Below, one piece after another: positions 15,369-22,569 of a stretch of DNA of 25,834 nt (position 1 is the first letter of the stretch; each line of letters begins with the position of its first letter). The translations under genes and the position numbers were made by a program. This stretch comes from a virus. The stretch spans positions 1-25,834 of IMG/VR virus record IMGVR_UViG_3300010354_000564; one strand, given 5' to 3'. Under the pieces are notes generated by a model. The model saw nothing but the letters and a program-made list of their open reading frames with translations, had not been told where the DNA came from and did no database searches.

Positions 15369-15705
15369 TCAGCTTGCCATCGTCATGCGATTGCTGGCCA
15401 GGACATCGACGGTTGCCAGCATTGTCGAGGCAACGGGTGTCACCCGCCAGACGATCTACAAGACGCTCCGCGCGCTCGAAACCCAACGGGTAGCGCGCAT
15501 CTGCCGGTGGAACTGCGACCACACTGGCCGCGCCGTTGAACCTGTATGGGGGCTTGGCAGCGATCCTTCGGATGTGCGCCGGCGACTGACGCCGGCCGAG
15601 AAGATGCTGCGGCACCGGCACAAGAAAAAGCGCAGCGACTTGGTCATGCAGGCCATCGTCGTCACGGCGGCAGCCACACCCAAGCCGACGCCGAGGCGCA
15701 AATGA
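15358..15705 (+). CDS. HTH DNA-binding protein preceding the primase-helicase
   Basis: The 115-residue protein has a helix-turn-helix at about 18-45 (TVASIVEATGVTRQTIYKTL) as in winged-helix regulators, a middle with two Cys (RICRWNCDHTG), and a basic C-terminal region with RHRHKKKRS and PTPRRK. It overlaps the primase-helicase start as ATGA, pointing to coupled synthesis. It could be an origin-binding or replication-initiation protein, or a regulator of early genes. The start has no evident Shine-Dalgarno sequence, consistent with dependence on the upstream gene. Confidence 0.72.
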   Translation: MKTDQLAIVMRLLARTSTVASIVEATGVTRQTIYKTLRALETQRVARICRWNCDHTGRAVEPVWGLGSDPSDVRRRLTPAEKMLRHRHKKKRSDLVMQAIVVTAAATPKPTPRRK

Positions 15706-17945
15706 CGGCGCCGTTTAACGACAAGGTGCTGACGGTCGCCGGCACCTACGAAAGCCATCGCGGCACCGACCAGGATTACGAGACGATCAGCGTTCAAGAG
15801 CTGATGACGATAGAGCGCACCGGCGTGCCTAAAGATCAAGCTCGCTGGGTTTTGTGCTCGACGTACAACGGCCCGGACGGGCGCAGCCACAAGGCGCAGG
15901 AGCAATTCGGCGAGTTCGTCATGCTCGCCGTCGATCTGGACACCGGCAATGTGCAAGGCAAGGCACTGGTCGCCGCTGTCCAATCCTTCACCGGCCACGT
16001 CCAGATGCGCGTCTACTCGTCGTCATCAGCAACGAAAGACGATCGCAAGTGGCGCGTGCTGATACCGCTGGCCAACGCTCTGCACTTTGCCGACTGGCTG
16101 GCAGCCACCACAGCGCTGAACGTGCACATTGAAGCCGAGCTCGGGCACAGGCCCGACAGGGCGCTTGAGCGCGCAGGCCAGCCGATTTATCTCCCCAACA
16201 CCGCACCGAGGGACGACGGCATCGAGCCGCTAATTGCTGACCAGCTGATCGACGGTGCGCTTCTGGATGTCACGGACTGCCCGGGCACCGAGCGCATTGA
16301 GGCGACAGCGCGAGACGAGGTTGAACGCATGGCCGAGCACGAGAGACGCTCGGCAGAGGCGCGACGGCGCATGGCGCAGCTGCGGGCGAAACCAAACTCG
16401 GACAAGTCGGTCATCAACGAATTCAACGCGGCCACGGATCTTGAGCACATGCTCGCCGCCTGCGGGTACGTGCAGGGACCACGCGAGGGCTGGAAGAGCC
16501 CGCGCCAGACGACGAACTCATACGCCACCAAGGTTTTCGACGAGCCAAGCGGCCAGTATTGGGTCAGCCTGTCTTTGTCTGATTTGGAGGCCGGCGTCGG
16601 GAGCCAAACCAGCGACGGCCGCTGCTGCTTCGGGGATGCGTTCGATGTCTGGTGCTTCACGTTCCACGGCAACGACAGAACAGCGGCAATCAAGGCAGCG
16701 GCCAGTGAATTGGGCATCGAGAAGCCACCGACTGGTATCGATATGCTCGCCGAGCGCATCCGGTCGAATCAGTTGCAGCAGCAGGCCAGCGCAGCAACGA
16801 TCACCCAGGAAACGCAACCAGAAGCATTGGCCCAGCAGGCCGAAACTGAAACGCAACCAGCCAAAGCCGAAACAAAACCCGCCGAAACTGAAACACAAGC
16901 CAGCGAGCTGGATCGCACCCTGCCCTACGTTCAGGCCAGCGACTTGCCGGAATGGGACGCGCCGCAGGAGTTGGTCGAGGGCATGCTGATGCAAGGCGGC
17001 ATGACGGTGATCTATGGCGACAGCAACACGGGCAAGTCGTTCTTAACGCTCGACATGGTTGCGCACATCAGCCAAGGCCGGCAATGGATGGGCAGGCAGG
17101 TCAAGCAGGCCGCTGTCGTCTACCTGGCAGCGGAATCCCCCAGGTCGATCGTCGACCGCGCCAGGGCGCTGGAAAAGCACCTGAACGAGCCGCTTACCCA
17201 GCTGTTCATCGTCAACTGCCCGATCGACCTGTACGACGCCAAAGGCGACACGCTGGCTGTGGTCAACACCATCATCCAGATCGAGGCCAAGCACCAGGTG
17301 ACGGTTGGCTGCGTGGTCGCAGACACGCTGGCCCGCGTCATCGGGGCGGGAGATGAGAACAAAGCGCAGGACATGGGCATCGTGATCAAGCACATCGACT
17401 TGATCAGAGCGGCCACCAAGGCGCAATTCATCCTGGTGCACCACACCGGCAAGGACAAGACCAACGGGGCGCGAGGATCTTCAGCCCTACGCGCGGCCAC
17501 CGACACCGAGATCGAAGTCACCGACAACCAGGACGGGACGCCCAAAGCGGCCACTGTGACCAAGCAGCGGGATCTACCCGGCAAGAACACATCGATCGGT
17601 TTTGATCTGGCCGTTGTCGAGCTCGGCAAAGGCATCTTTGGCAACGTGTTCACGACCTGCGTGGTCGAGCAAAGAGCTGTCGAAGGTGACAGCCGGGAGC
17701 GCGACCTGACACCCCTACAGCGCGACATTTTGGAATTCATCCGGACTCAGCCGGGCTCGCCGCGCCGATTGGCCATTGCCGAATATGTACGAGATGCGCG
17801 ACCAAATGTTAATGATTCGACCATCACTCGGGCGCTCGACAAGCTGGTCAAGCAGCGACTTGTTACCAAAATGCTAGGTATGTACTCGGCCACCGGTACG
17901 AATGCCATCGGCGTTGCTCACTCGGCAAGTAAAAATGAGTTTTAG
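15702..17945 (+). CDS. Primase-helicase replication protein (AEP-like primase plus RepA/AAA-type helicase)
   Basis: The ATG at 15702 overlaps the HTH gene stop (ATGA); the frame extends upstream but over that gene. The 747-residue protein has an N-terminal region with a DxD pair at Asp78/Asp80 (VMLAVDLDTG) and YSSSSATKDDRKWRVLIPLA, as in archaeo-eukaryotic primases; a second globular part (about 230-355); a Glu/Thr/Gln-rich linker (about 367-402, TETQPAKAETKPAETETQ); then a RecA-type ATPase with Walker A GDSNTGKS (439-446), Walker B ending VVADT (Asp541) and ILVHHTGKD as in RepA/RSF1010-type helicases. A C-terminal winged helix (about 667-725, LTPLQRDILEFI) may bind the origin. It would unwind and prime phage DNA. 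Confidence 0.85.
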   Translation: MTAPFNDKVLTVAGTYESHRGTDQDYETISVQELMTIERTGVPKDQARWVLCSTYNGPDGRSHKAQEQFGEFVMLAVDLDTGNVQGKALVAAVQSFTGHVQMRVYSSSSATKDDRKWRVLIPLANALHFADWLAATTALNVHIEAELGHRPDRALERAGQPIYLPNTAPRDDGIEPLIADQLIDGALLDVTDCPGTERIEATARDEVERMAEHERRSAEARRRMAQLRAKPNSDKSVINEFNAATDLEHMLAACGYVQGPREGWKSPRQTTNSYATKVFDEPSGQYWVSLSLSDLEAGVGSQTSDGRCCFGDAFDVWCFTFHGNDRTAAIKAAASELGIEKPPTGIDMLAERIRSNQLQQQASAATITQETQPEALAQQAETETQPAKAETKPAETETQASELDRTLPYVQASDLPEWDAPQELVEGMLMQGGMTVIYGDSNTGKSFLTLDMVAHISQGRQWMGRQVKQAAVVYLAAESPRSIVDRARALEKHLNEPLTQLFIVNCPIDLYDAKGDTLAVVNTIIQIEAKHQVTVGCVVADTLARVIGAGDENKAQDMGIVIKHIDLIRAATKAQFILVHHTGKDKTNGARGSSALRAATDTEIEVTDNQDGTPKAATVTKQRDLPGKNTSIGFDLAVVELGKGIFGNVFTTCVVEQRAVEGDSRERDLTPLQRDILEFIRTQPGSPRRLAIAEYVRDARPNVNDSTITRALDKLVKQRLVTKMLGMYSATGTNAIGVAHSASKNEF

Positions 17946-17968
17946 TAATGGAATCAATGAGTTGGAAT

Positions 17969-18072
17969 ATGTGCGCACATGTGCGTGCATATGTGCGCAT
18001 ATGATTTATAAAACATGTGCGTCATGTGCGTCGTCCTATAGGGACGCACATGCGCACATATAGCCATGTGCG
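17969..18072. repeat. ATGTGCG/CGCACAT repeat array, candidate replication origin
   Basis: ATGTGCG occurs at 17969, 17979, 17991, 18015, 18024 and 18066, and CGCACAT at 17974, 18045 and 18053: nine copies in 104 bp. They build a perfect palindrome ATGTGCGCACAT (17969-17980), a hairpin CATGTGCGTC (18023-18032) with GACGCACATG (18043-18052), and a 12-bp inverted pair (17989-18000 with 18050-18061). A short AT-rich patch lies at 18001-18014. The array starts 23 bp after the primase-helicase stop, where phage origins with iterons are often found. A convergent-terminator or regulator-binding role is the alternative. Confidence 0.7.
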
Positions 18073-18087
18073 CATCATGGGTATGGG

Positions 18088-18120
18088 TGAAAAGAAAACC
18101 CCGACACGCTGGCCGGGGTT
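18088..18120 (-). terminator. Terminator of the leftward operon
   Basis: On the minus strand AACCCCG (18120-18114) pairs with CGGGGTT (18103-18097) around a 10-nt loop, followed by a T-rich run (TTTTCTTTTC). It ends transcription of the 18151-19705 genes before it enters the repeat array. Confidence 0.85.
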
Positions 18121-18150
18121 GGTGGGGAGTGGGGGCTGATTGCGGTTTTG

Positions 18151-18336
18151 CTATCGGGTGAGCTCGATGGCTTTCAGCGCTTCGTCGAGACGCTTGGCTT
18201 GTTGAATGAGCAATGCGTTTGGTGGCGTGCTGGAATGGGACAGCAGCAGGACGTAGGCCTTCAACGCACGCGCCTGATCCAACGCGTCGGCAACTGTCCC
18301 GGCCTGGCGGCGGGTCATCATGAGGACGTCGGTCAT
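18151..18336 (-). CDS. Small helical hypothetical protein
   Basis: The start at 18336 is the ATGA overlap with the previous gene (an earlier start at 18408 would overlap it much more). The 61-residue product is helical: MTRRQAGTVADALDQARALK, VLLLSHSS, LIQQAKRLDEALKAIELTR. Last gene of the leftward operon, 31 bp before its terminator. No function recognised. Confidence 0.7.
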   Translation of the reverse strand: MTDVLMMTRRQAGTVADALDQARALKAYVLLLSHSSTPPNALLIQQAKRLDEALKAIELTR

Positions 18337-18545
18337 GGCGCCTCCGATGCCGTGTCGTCGAACAGGGAAGGCGCAGCAGGTGACGACTGCCGGGCGCGTG
18401 GAGCGCAACGGGCGGCCAGCTGGGCAACCTGGTCAGCCGGGATGCCGAACAGGTCAGGCTGGCCGGTGCCAATAGGCGGCTGGCCGGGTTGGGGCGTGAG
18501 GATGAAAGCGGCAGCCTCGTCGGCTTGGTAGGGGTCAGGCTTCAT
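18333..18545 (-). CDS. Proline-rich hypothetical protein
   Basis: 70 residues, low complexity and Pro/Ala/Gln-rich: DEAAAFILTPQPGQPPIGTG, PDLFGIPADQVAQL, then a basic ARCAPRARQ and PSLFDDTASEAP. The DLFG and LFDD blocks look like short peptide-binding motifs in a mostly disordered chain. Overlaps the previous gene by 11 bp and the next by 4. Unknown role. Confidence 0.65.
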   Translation of the reverse strand: MKPDPYQADEAAAFILTPQPGQPPIGTGQPDLFGIPADQVAQLAARCAPRARQSSPAAPSLFDDTASEAP

Positions 18546-18906
18546 GCGTCACCTCGTCAACGGAAATGATGACGGACGACAGCGCCTCGCGCACCAGCTC
18601 AAGGCCAGCAAAGATCGCGCGTCCATTTTCGGTGCCGTCATGGTCGAGATACGACGCCTCCAGTAACGGCAACGCTGTGCGCAGCGCTCGCATGAGCAGC
18701 GGCGCGCGGGCGATCAATGCCGCGTTCGCTAACGGCTCGTCAAGGTGCGGCGCGTGGGCTGCTACGTTGACGGTGGCAATGGTCAGCGGGCCTTGCGGGT
18801 GGTCCAGGGATGCCGGGTCAATGATGCGCAGGACGCCGGCCGATGAATCGAGGTCGTCAAGCTCGTAATCGATCAGCCAAGGGCCGGGTGTGTGTTTGGT
18901 GGTCAT
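18535..18906 (-). CDS. TPGPW-motif phage hypothetical protein
   Basis: The 123-residue protein begins MTTKHTPGPWLIDYEL; the HTPGPW opening is a hallmark of a widespread family of small phage proteins of unknown function. It continues with VLRIIDPASL, TIATVNVAAHAPHL, then NAALIARAPLLMRALRTALP and a C-terminal helix (ELVREALSSVII). The NAxLIAxAPxLL block is also typical of the family. The start at 18906 has AAGG upstream and overlaps the 30-residue gene (ATGA). Confidence 0.82.
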   Translation of the reverse strand: MTTKHTPGPWLIDYELDDLDSSAGVLRIIDPASLDHPQGPLTIATVNVAAHAPHLDEPLANAALIARAPLLMRALRTALPLLEASYLDHDGTENGRAIFAGLELVREALSSVIISVDEVTHEA

Positions 18907-18995
18907 TTCAAAACCTTTCGAATAAGCCAGATCAGCGCTGGCAGGGACAAGAAAAGGCCGCACAGGGCGGCCTCTAGGCGGTGGCGTGGGGTCAT
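18903..18995 (-). CDS. Mini membrane protein, 30 residues
   Basis: This 31-codon frame starts as ATGA on the stop of the 18992-19168 gene and ends as ATGA on the start of the TPGPW gene, filling the gap exactly. It begins MTPRHRLEAALCGLFLSLPA and ends IWLIRKVLK: a basic end, one hydrophobic segment of about 16 residues, and a basic tail. A terminator-like hairpin (18949-18972) lies inside the coding sequence. Overlaps at both ends make translation likely. Confidence 0.6.
   Translation of the reverse strand: MTPRHRLEAALCGLFLSLPALIWLIRKVLK
18949..18972 (-). terminator. Intra-operon terminator inside the 30-residue gene
   Basis: On the minus strand GGCCGC (18972-18967) pairs with GCGGCC (18961-18956) with a 5-nt loop, followed by TTTTCTT. 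If active it would reduce expression of the three downstream genes unless translation of the mini gene or an antiterminator suppresses it. Confidence 0.65.
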
Positions 18996-19168
18996 TCGTA
19001 TGCGTAGTCCTCGGCGTAGTCTTCCAGGGCCGTGATCAGCGCGTCGAAGTCCTCAGACGGTCCGAGCATGTCGGCGATGGCGTATACGACGTGTCGTGGG
19101 TACTCGTCGCACAGCGATTCGAGATAGGCCTTGCGGTTGGCGTAGCCGTTGGCTTGGTAGTCGGTCAT
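18992..19168 (-). CDS. Small acidic hypothetical protein
   Basis: 58 residues: MTDYQANGYANRKAYLESLC, DEYPRHVVYAIADMLGPSED, then a very acidic C-terminus (LEDYAEDYAYE). AAAGGAGAAC precedes the ATG at 19168. Small proteins of the NRxAYLxSLCDEY type are frequent near anti-restriction or plasmid-like genes (recalled, low certainty). Function unknown. Confidence 0.72.
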   Translation of the reverse strand: MTDYQANGYANRKAYLESLCDEYPRHVVYAIADMLGPSEDFDALITALEDYAEDYAYE

Positions 19169-19834: not shown

Positions 19835-20362
19835 ATGCAAAAAGCAGCCGTTAGGACGGTTCAGAAAAGCCGCCCAACCTACGAACGAGGCGTTGACCTA
19901 ACGCCGAAACAGCGTCACTTCGTGTCCGAATTGGTGAGGACTGGCTGTACGCCCACGCAAGCCGCGCGGACAGCCGGTTACAGCGATGCCGGCACGTCGG
20001 CCTATGACCTAAGCCGATTACCGCACGTCGCAGCCGCCATCCGCCTCGAACGCGAGCGTTATATCTCCGGCGAGCTGGCCAACGTGGCCACCGGCACCCT
20101 GCACCAGATCTTGGTCGATAAGGGCGCACCGGCAGCAGCCCGCGTCCAAGCCGCCAGGACGGTTCTGGAGATGTCAGGCGAGATCGGACGGCACAAGCGG
20201 AGCGCAGAGGACGAGCGGCCACTGTCCGAGATGACAGCCGAAGAACTGGCCGGGTTGATCGACAAGTGGCAAGCCGAAAAGGCAGCGCTGGCCAAGCCGA
20301 TCGACGCCGAGGACGTCGAAATCATCGATAAAGCGCAGGATAGAGCGCAACTGCCCGGCTAA
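19835..20362 (+). CDS. terS: Terminase small subunit
   Basis: The 175-residue protein has the small-terminase HTH signature LTPKQRHFVSELVRTGCTPTQAARTAGYSD (given here as LTPKQRHFV and TQAARTAGYSD) at about 22-52, then ALPHVAAAI-type helix (RLPHVAAAIRLERERY), a central oligomerisation helix region with VQAARTVLEMSGEIGRHK, and a C-terminal helix ending acidic (EDVEIIDKAQDRAQ). It would recognise pac/cos DNA and load the large terminase. It is preceded by a probable leaderless promoter. The large subunit does not follow; a 335-bp noncoding stretch and tail-fibre genes come next, an unusual order. Confidence 0.85.
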   Translation: MQKAAVRTVQKSRPTYERGVDLTPKQRHFVSELVRTGCTPTQAARTAGYSDAGTSAYDLSRLPHVAAAIRLERERYISGELANVATGTLHQILVDKGAPAAARVQAARTVLEMSGEIGRHKRSAEDERPLSEMTAEELAGLIDKWQAEKAALAKPIDAEDVEIIDKAQDRAQLPG

Positions 20363-20697
20363 ACCCGCACCAGGCCTTGCCTGACCGCTGCGTGGTTAGG
20401 GCAGGCACCCTGCAATTTCCCCCTGCAACATGCCAGCTGGCAGCCCGACCAGGCTGCCGGCCGGCCATCGATGCGCGTGCTGTCGTCATGCCGCGTGGCC
20501 GGCGCCGGCGTCGACCCGCCCCCCGGCGTAGCGCCGACGAGCCGCTCCGCAACTGGTACCCGCCCCCACCAGAAATTTTTCAAATTGTCCGACTTCACCC
20601 CACCGCGTGCCGACCCGCCACACTCCACAAACCACCATACAATCAGCCACTTTTCAGACAATCCGCCATACAATTGCGGCATCTAAGAGAGGCGGCA
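20363..20697. other. 335-bp noncoding, palindrome-rich region (candidate pac/cos or RNA)
   Basis: No convincing gene. It holds a series of structures: GCAGG/CCTGC (20401-20413), perfect palindrome TGCCAGCTGGCA (20431-20442), GGCAGCC/GGCTGCC (20439-20445 with 20452-20458), palindrome GCCGGCGCCGGC (20498-20509) and CGGCG/CGCCG (20524-20528 with 20532-20536), then an AT patch near 20573-20588 and repeats before the fibre gene. Being next to terS, it may contain the packaging site; a structured RNA or terminator is also possible. Confidence 0.5.
20635..20674 (+). promoter_or_regulatory. Two CCATACAAT repeats upstream of the tail-fibre gene
   Basis: CCATACAAT occurs at 20635-20643 and 20666-20674, 31 bp (three helical turns) apart. 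Each includes TACAAT, a good -10 box, but no -35 is visible for either. They contain CATACAA, the operator half-site of the immunity region. The tail-fibre ATG is 23 nt after the second copy. Confidence 0.5.
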
Positions 20698-22569
20698 ATG
20701 GCACAACCCACTCCCTACACACGGCTGTACAACTTTACCGACTATCAGACGGTCAATCCCACCACGCCGCTGCCAGCGAACCAACTCGACAATGAGCTGA
20801 ACGCGATCGCATTAACGGCTGGCCAGATCAGAAGCAACCTTGCACTGATCCAGCGCGACGACGGCGCGTTGGCCAATCAGACGGTCACGCCAGACAGCTT
20901 GTCTGCGGGCACGCTGGCCTTGATCACGCAGGGCGAATACAACCCCCGAGGCGCATGGGTCGCATCCACGGCGTATGCAGTCGGCGATGTTGTCACCTTC
21001 AATGCAGCGACTTATCTCGCGTTGACCGCCCACACGTCAGGTGCGACTTTCGCGACCGACTTGGCGGCAGGTAAATGGTTGCTGATTGCAAACGGCGCAT
21101 TGTCGGGCGGTGCGACGGCCGTGGATCTGTACGAGGGCACGGGCTCCCAGACGACATTCACGCTGTCCTACACGTACAACGGCAGCAACTCTGCGACCGT
21201 GTTTGTGGGCGGTGTTGCGCAGATACCGACGCAAGACTTCACGATCTCGGGCACGACGATTACGTTTGTGACCGCACCTCCCGCGCCGGCGGTGGCTGGC
21301 CGCAAAAACGTGATGGTGCGTGGCACTGGCGTGGAAGCGCAGCTTGCCGGCAACGCTGCAACGACGTCGGCCGCCAACGCGGCCAATAGCGCAAGCGCAG
21401 CGGCCACGTCGGCAACAGCCGCAGCGGCTTCTGCGACGGCTGCCGCAGGATCAGCGACAACCGCATCAACGCAAGCGACGAACGCGTCAGCATCAGCAAC
21501 GACAGCAACCACCAAGGCATCAGAGGCCGCAACATCAGCGACAAATGCCGCTGCGTCAGCCACAACGGCGAGCACGCAGGCATCCAACGCTGCGACATCG
21601 GCCACCGCTGCTGCTGCGTCGGCGACAACGGCATCAGGTCACGCCACGACAGCAACGACGCAGGCCGGCAATGCGTCGTCCTCAGCAAGCGCAGCATCCA
21701 CGTCAGCCAGCAATGCAGCAGCGTCGGCAGCGACTGCGACGACCAAAGCGTCCGACGCGACAGCTGCCGCATCCCAAGCGCAGACGTCGGCCACGAATGC
21801 TGCGACGTCGGCGTCGTCAGCGTCCACATCAGCCACCAATGCCCAGACGTCAGCCACAGCTGCGGCAGGATCTGCGACGTCGGCATCCAATTCCGCGTCG
21901 ACCGCTTCTACGGCGGCGACCAGCGCAACGGCTTCAGCGACGGCTGCGGCGTCGTCTGCAACGTCAGCGGCGGGTTCTGCCACTGCTGCTGGGGCGTCGG
22001 CCACCACGGCGTCCACCGCTGCGACAACAGCCACCACGGCCTCTACTGCGGCAGTCGCTGCCCAGACGGCGGCTGAAGCTGCGTATGACTCGTTTGACGA
22101 CCGGTATCTGGGCGCGAAGGCGTCGAATCCGACGGTGGACAACGATGGCAATGCGCTGCTTGTTGGCGCCCTGCACTGGAACACGACGGCCGGCGAGATG
22201 CGTGTCTGGAACGGCACGGCATGGGTAGCTGCCACTGTGTCGCCTGATACGGTGCAAGAGGTTGAATTCACCGCGACGGCCGGTCAGACGGCGTATGCGT
22301 TTGCTGGCGGCTACCGCGTTGGCTTCACGTATGTGTGGGTCAATGGTGTTCTGTTGGATGACGCCGACATCACGGCCACCGACGGCACCAACATCACGTT
22401 TGCTTCAGCGCTTGCGTTGAACGACAAGGTGCGCGTGATGACGTTCAAGGCATTGGCGTCGGTGACGATTGCCGACATCACCGGGTTGCAGGCGCAGCTC
22501 GACACGATTAACTCAACCATTCTGGCCATCCCGAATCCCGTGGCGATGGCACTCGTTTTCGGGAGCTAA
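20698..22569 (+). CDS. Tail fibre with Ala/Ser/Thr-rich shaft
   Basis: The ATG at 20698 (AGAGAGGCGG upstream) is chosen over an in-frame start at 20377. The 623-residue protein begins with a tail-fibre N-terminal domain (YNFTDYQTVNPTTPLPANQL, then ALIQRDDGALANQTV), typical of virion-attachment ends. Residues about 79-121 form a carbohydrate-binding-like module (RGAWVASTAYAVGDVVTFNA). A beta module follows (SQTTFTLSYTYNGSNSATV). Residues about 219-463 are a long repeat of Ala/Ser/Thr heptads (SATAAAASATTAS type), a trimeric shaft. The C-terminal part has WNTTAGEMRVWNGTAWV and a second beta module, and no receptor tip is obvious. Confidence 0.85.
   Translation: MAQPTPYTRLYNFTDYQTVNPTTPLPANQLDNELNAIALTAGQIRSNLALIQRDDGALANQTVTPDSLSAGTLALITQGEYNPRGAWVASTAYAVGDVVTFNAATYLALTAHTSGATFATDLAAGKWLLIANGALSGGATAVDLYEGTGSQTTFTLSYTYNGSNSATVFVGGVAQIPTQDFTISGTTITFVTAPPAPAVAGRKNVMVRGTGVEAQLAGNAATTSAANAANSASAAATSATAAAASATAAAGSATTASTQATNASASATTATTKASEAATSATNAAASATTASTQASNAATSATAAAASATTASGHATTATTQAGNASSSASAASTSASNAAASAATATTKASDATAAASQAQTSATNAATSASSASTSATNAQTSATAAAGSATSASNSASTASTAATSATASATAAASSATSAAGSATAAGASATTASTAATTATTASTAAVAAQTAAEAAYDSFDDRYLGAKASNPTVDNDGNALLVGALHWNTTAGEMRVWNGTAWVAATVSPDTVQEVEFTATAGQTAYAFAGGYRVGFTYVWVNGVLLDDADITATDGTNITFASALALNDKVRVMTFKALASVTIADITGLQAQLDTINSTILAIPNPVAMALVFGS

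Follow-up and report, generated by a model that had tools for sequence, protein, structure and literature searches.

An initiator helicase that recognises iterons 3' of its own gene is already known in principle. The C-terminal domain of SaPI Rep acts on iterons directly 3' of its gene, and the isolated C-terminal domain of Cch2 of SCCmec binds its downstream repeats (PMC7581432). The alpha protein of phage P4 binds the ori repeats by a winged helix (PMC4234260), and in RSF1010 three proteins share the work, RepC reading the iterons, RepA unwinding and RepB' priming at ssi stem-loops (PMC4234260, PMC4538821). Fusions of a primase, a RepA-type helicase and a winged helix have also been published; the arrangements of the PrimQH and All3500 primase families include all three, the C-terminal winged helix being proposed for origin recognition (PMC5862659). 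Here we describe a repeat array that, with a probability of roughly 0.86, is the replication origin of a temperate tailed phage, or the initiator-binding core of that origin, read by a predicted winged helix of the helicase encoded upstream.

The whole stretch of DNA analysed (the window) comprises 25,834 bases and is a virus record of IMG/VR. Its family matches include an integrase of the tyrosine type, an endolysin, a RuvC-like resolvase, a RecE-like exonuclease, a terminase small subunit and a tail fibre, and its source is a temperate tailed phage. We also noticed that at 19835-22569 the gene directly after a terminase-small-subunit-like gene does not encode a large terminase but is tail-fibre-like and carries a carbohydrate-binding module (CBM_5_12).

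The first-pass annotation had reported nine copies of ATGTGCG/CGCACAT, a perfect palindrome, a nested 10-bp hairpin and a density not explained by coding, and all these observations held. Nine exact copies lie within 17969-18072, precisely where they had been placed, and a tenth (CGCATAT, 17996-18002, minus strand) has one mismatch. The palindrome is present as two overlapping perfect 12-mers (ATGTGCGCACAT, 17969-17980, and CGCACATGTGCG, 17974-17985) and the hairpin as the CATGTGCGTC/GACGCACATG stem. The array is intergenic, starting 23 bp past the stop of the plus-strand primase-helicase gene (17945), with minus-strand ORFs on the other side (low end about 18151) and only short, unsupported ORFs crossing it. 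Among 60 dinucleotide-shuffled versions of the window, the highest count reached by a 7-mer was four per 104 bp. Over the whole window the word was observed 15 times against 7.4 expected, the six copies outside the array being singletons. Folded as single-stranded DNA, the entire array reached a z of -5.8 versus shuffles, and an Rfam scan of 17500-18600 gave no match. A cluster of short repeats adjoining the putative initiator gene is thus found in the window and, as described below, is kept in relatives.

Table 1. Features of the primase-helicase gene and of the adjacent repeat array (window coordinates).
Feature	Position	Strand	Description
Primase-helicase gene	15546..17945	+	799-aa ORF; N-terminal primase-like part, RSF1010-RepA-type RecA-fold helicase (AAA_25), predicted C-terminal winged helix
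C-terminal winged-helix domain (predicted)	17691..17891 (residues ~716-782)	+	Proposed iteron reader
Exact iteron copies	17969(+), 17974(-), 17979(+), 17991(+), 18015(+), 18024(+), 18045(-), 18053(-), 18066(+)		ATGTGCG/CGCACAT
Left iteron block	17969..18002		ATGTGCG at 17969(+), 17974(-), 17979(+), 17991(+), one-mismatch copy at 17996(-); overlapping palindromes
Short AT-rich stretch	18000..18014		TATGATTTATAAAAC, between the two iteron blocks; candidate melting segment
Central module	18015..18059		ATGTGCG(+) at 18015 and 18024; CCTATAGG dyad 18035-18042; CGCACAT(-) at 18045 and 18053
10-bp stem	18023..18052		Arms CATGTGCGTC (18023-18032) and GACGCACATG (18043-18052), loop GTCCTATAGG
Rightmost iteron	18066..18072	+	Exact copy
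Terminator-like hairpin with T tail	18097..18120	-	Ends the leftward operon before the array

The ORF upstream of the array matched Pfam AAA_25 (1.6e-37) and a PHROG DNA polymerase/primase family (1.6e-50). With the family alignment used as a profile, RSF1010 RepA was the sole PDB match (1g8y, E 3.4e-11), and the structure search matched the RepA entries 1nlf and 1g8y. By sequence kinship, the window helicase belongs to the RSF1010 RepA-type RecA-fold helicases. The protein does not have the DUF927 or D5-type helicase of the SaPI Rep family proper, its matches being AAA_25 and RSF1010 RepA. The AlphaFold2 model had a mean pLDDT of 80, and Foldseek on the full model returned mostly RecA folds. 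As homology starts only near residue 60 and residues 1-54 were modelled at low confidence, translation may in fact begin at the in-frame ATG at 15702. The C-terminal domain was modelled as three helices and a beta-hairpin (pLDDT about 90) resembling MecI/BlaI/Fur-type winged helices at Z 10-11; its structure search listed many generic winged helices, and by sequence alone winged-helix matches in the C-terminus were sub-threshold. The model therefore predicts a DNA-binding winged helix in the putative initiator, separate from the helicase core. No Pfam primase domain was matched in the N-terminal part. Across the family this primase part is variable (L076:82-900, L097:3035-5017) while the helicase type and the 3' array are constant; relative L076 has a Prim-Pol match (2.7e-24), and Alteromonas phage XX1924 has a TOPRIM-annotated protein.

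We then looked at the array in relatives. The family profile search collected 80 viral loci, giving 52 representatives under 90% identity, and an array was scored when a single 7-mer occurred six or more times, with both orientations represented, between -200 and +450 of the helicase stop. Results showed that 31 of the 52 distinct relatives carry an array at the 3' end of the gene, compared with one of 538 control tiles, and at most loci no other repeat cluster is as dense. Words vary from lineage to lineage (GGTCACA, GTATAAA, CTACAAA and TCCTAAA, among others). The closest relative (L005, 55% identical) has eight copies of GGTCACA/TGTGACC in the same place, the Roseobacter phages CRP-831 and CRP-821 (34-35% identical) have ten of GTATAAA, and the Roseobacter phage CRP-811 has eleven of CTACAAA. 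Since relatives share the position and carry different words, the place of the array is kept and the word is not. Arrays were also found in the annotated phages 1N2-2, HK578, XX1924, Javan311 and eiAU-183, and smaller clusters in phages Diane and Sortsne. No clear array was seen in relatives L078, L081, L089 and L025, in Vibrio 19E33.1, Caulobacter KcrB and mycobacteriophages Vivaldi and Ariel, or in Jerseyvirus NBSal006, PSKM and X1. It had been proposed that absence of the array from relatives with the same replication gene would speak against origin iterons; most such relatives have it, in the same place and with different words, which supports the earlier leading proposal of iterons tied to the primase-helicase.

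A few loci had distinct arrangements. L047 and L049 carry a second cluster about 2.1-2.4 kb past the helicase stop (AAAAGTT, nine copies, both orientations), which is the sole control tile passing the test at six or more copies. In L030, a CTACATA array (nine copies, both orientations) lies 778-1015 bp past the stop, farther than in relatives, as if a segment had been inserted between gene and array. L080 has, about 170-480 bp past the stop, 18-19 copies of CCGGAGC/GACCGGA in a single orientation, as opposed to the mixed-orientation arrays. At a greater distance, a DNA search among phages returned only a 92-base helicase match, and a search of genome contigs gave no relative with the single protein and four weaker ones with the alignment. 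GC skew, another suggested check, was uninformative: neither of the complete genomes of CRP-811 and CRP-831 showed a signal at the array, the extreme values being reached instead near 9 kb, at the switch in gene direction, and at 20-25 kb.

Not only the place but also the geometry of the array is shared. In the window the words are centred at -20.5, -11.5, +9.5 and +17.5 relative to the CCTATAGG dyad, and all four positions (about -20, -11, +9 and +17) are occupied by exact words in eight representatives with six different words (L006, L008, L035, L039, L057, L062, L067 and the window); others have exact words at three of the four. Of 39 arrays, 23 have a CCT-N-TAGG-type core, where shuffles would give 0.8; among 380-bp tiles elsewhere the rate is 1.5%, and in several relatives the strict core is absent or degenerate. 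The single-strand folding energy of 18010-18064 is -19.8 kcal/mol (z -8.3), and the 10-bp stem is a possible hairpin or cruciform and a candidate site for priming or loading. The arms beside the core (positions 5-8) pair above the column-shuffle rate across relatives, a signal inflated by the kinship of the sequences; this pairing is compatible with a hairpin or with a site for a dimeric protein.

An array of this kind might act as an operator, the words being bound by a phage repressor, or by the helicase itself, to control transcription of the flanking operons. Winged helices of the matched fold are mostly transcription repressors, and short inverted-word arrays can serve as operators. On the other hand, a search of 17600-19000 found no promoter-like site, and the array sits at the 3' end of a gene whose neighbours are co-directional or convergent depending on the phage. 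Moreover, there are no operators elsewhere, because the exact word copies are all in the array in CRP-811 and all but one in CRP-831. We therefore regard an operator as improbable, although autoregulation on top of an origin function is possible.

The word was also compared with the protein. By partial Mantel test over 39 representatives, the word follows the C-terminal domain once the helicase core is controlled for (r=0.24, p=0.0005); with the C-terminus controlled for, it does not follow the core (r=-0.04, p=0.78). The effect is moderate: within the Roseobacter-type group alone word and C-terminal domain correlate at r=0.38 (p=0.001), and when similarity of the downstream flank is also controlled the value falls to r=0.11 (p=0.015). 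CRP-831 and CRP-811 provide a natural swap. The two agree at 99% over the aligned helicase core versus 68% over the C-terminus, and their arrays have one common layout, ++ ---- ++ [CCCTTTAGGG] --, in which every site is GTATAAA in CRP-831 and CTACAAA in CRP-811. As the layout is the same and each site has its lineage's own word, the array sites change in concert, which is as expected if one shared reader served them all. This co-variation suggests that the repeat word is specific to its initiator; with each lineage having its own pair of word and predicted winged helix, the system would therefore be self-specific.

Alternatively, the array and the C-terminal coding end could simply recombine together, the words having no reader in the helicase protein. 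Because domain and array are adjacent, recombination may have passed them on together and so produced part of the co-variation, and the decrease of the Mantel effect under flank control agrees with this. However, physical linkage, which could explain part of the correlation, does not readily explain the preserved layout: the geometry is kept while the words change, and all sites of the common layout carry the same changed word between CRP-831 and CRP-811. Co-inheritance as the only explanation is very unlikely. We give equally little credit to an insulator of convergent transcription or a bidirectional terminator. The genes are convergent in the window and the array contains a strong hairpin, but Roseobacter phages retain the array beside a co-directional gene, the leftward operon is closed by a terminator-like hairpin of its own (18120-18097) before the array, and the hairpins inside the array are without a good T tail, so that the insulator proposed by the first-pass annotation did not find support. 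The partition-like site proposed with it fared no better and is extremely unlikely: ParB sites can take the form of clustered short repeats of both orientations, but no ParA/ParB family match was found among the scanned ORFs of this incomplete contig, the phage carries a tyrosine integrase, and the word tracks the C-terminus of the helicase.

Considering the array as an origin, we propose the following mechanism; origin activity itself and each of the steps (binding, loading, melting, and priming at the palindrome) are inferred by analogy with described systems. The C-terminal winged helix of the upstream primase-helicase would bind the ATGTGCG iterons in both orientations, and helicase subunits would thereby be gathered left and right of the central CCTATAGG palindrome. 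The strands would open at this palindrome, possibly aided by the AT-rich stretch, and the primase part would begin synthesis there. One protein would thus do three jobs, iteron reading, unwinding and priming, as SaPI Rep/Cch2, P4 alpha and RSF1010 suggest.

To our knowledge, most tailed phages have no mapped origin. If the origin reading is true, sequence would be enough to locate the origin in a large set of phages, since it would lie where the RepA-type primase-helicase gene ends. CRP-831 and CRP-811, for example, with the same core and a different C-terminus and word, would be a natural swap for learning how a winged helix chooses its DNA word, and such pairs would also suit asking how a helicase of the RecA fold is loaded when it has no separate loader. 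More tentatively, we may be looking at a widespread class of phage origin, in which a RecA-fold primase-helicase self-loads via a fused winged helix on two-plus-two iterons around a CCT(A/T)TAGG priming hairpin, the winged-helix/word pair diversifying rapidly between otherwise near-identical phages and so giving a readable code from winged helix to DNA word, and origin incompatibility groups among phages. Among the papers that our literature search covered, we found none describing the array in RepA-type phages, such absence being weak evidence, and no description of a RepA-type phage origin, of the CCTATAGG module or of word/winged-helix co-variation.

The comparison with described systems shows which parts are shared. 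By analogy, SaPI Rep/ori and Cch2 are like the proposed window system in having an initiator helicase with a C-terminal domain for downstream iterons; their helicases are of the DUF927 or D5 type, whereas that of the window is RecA-fold and RSF1010-RepA-type, and, unlike them, the window array has a conserved central CCTATAGG palindrome and a fixed word geometry. In the PrimQH/All3500 work, as far as the available part goes, no connection is drawn between the winged helix and either a 3' array of iterons or co-variation of the word (PMC5862659). The pRN1 ORF904 protein also combines primase, helicase and winged helix, with its origin just 3' of the gene (PMC4234260), but its helicase is of the SF3 type and its large stem-loop has no iterons. 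The alpha protein of satellite phage P4 is, again by analogy, like the proposed window protein, one polypeptide that primes, unwinds and binds the origin repeats (PMC4234260); its primase is a TOPRIM, whereas Pfam identified none in the window protein. RSF1010, with RepA, RepB', RepC and an oriV bearing ssiA and ssiB, has a helicase homologous to that of the window and would share with it the roles of iteron reader, helicase and primase. There, three separate proteins work with two paired ssi hairpins; in the window, one fused protein would work with short iterons in both orientations around a single conserved central palindrome with covarying arms.
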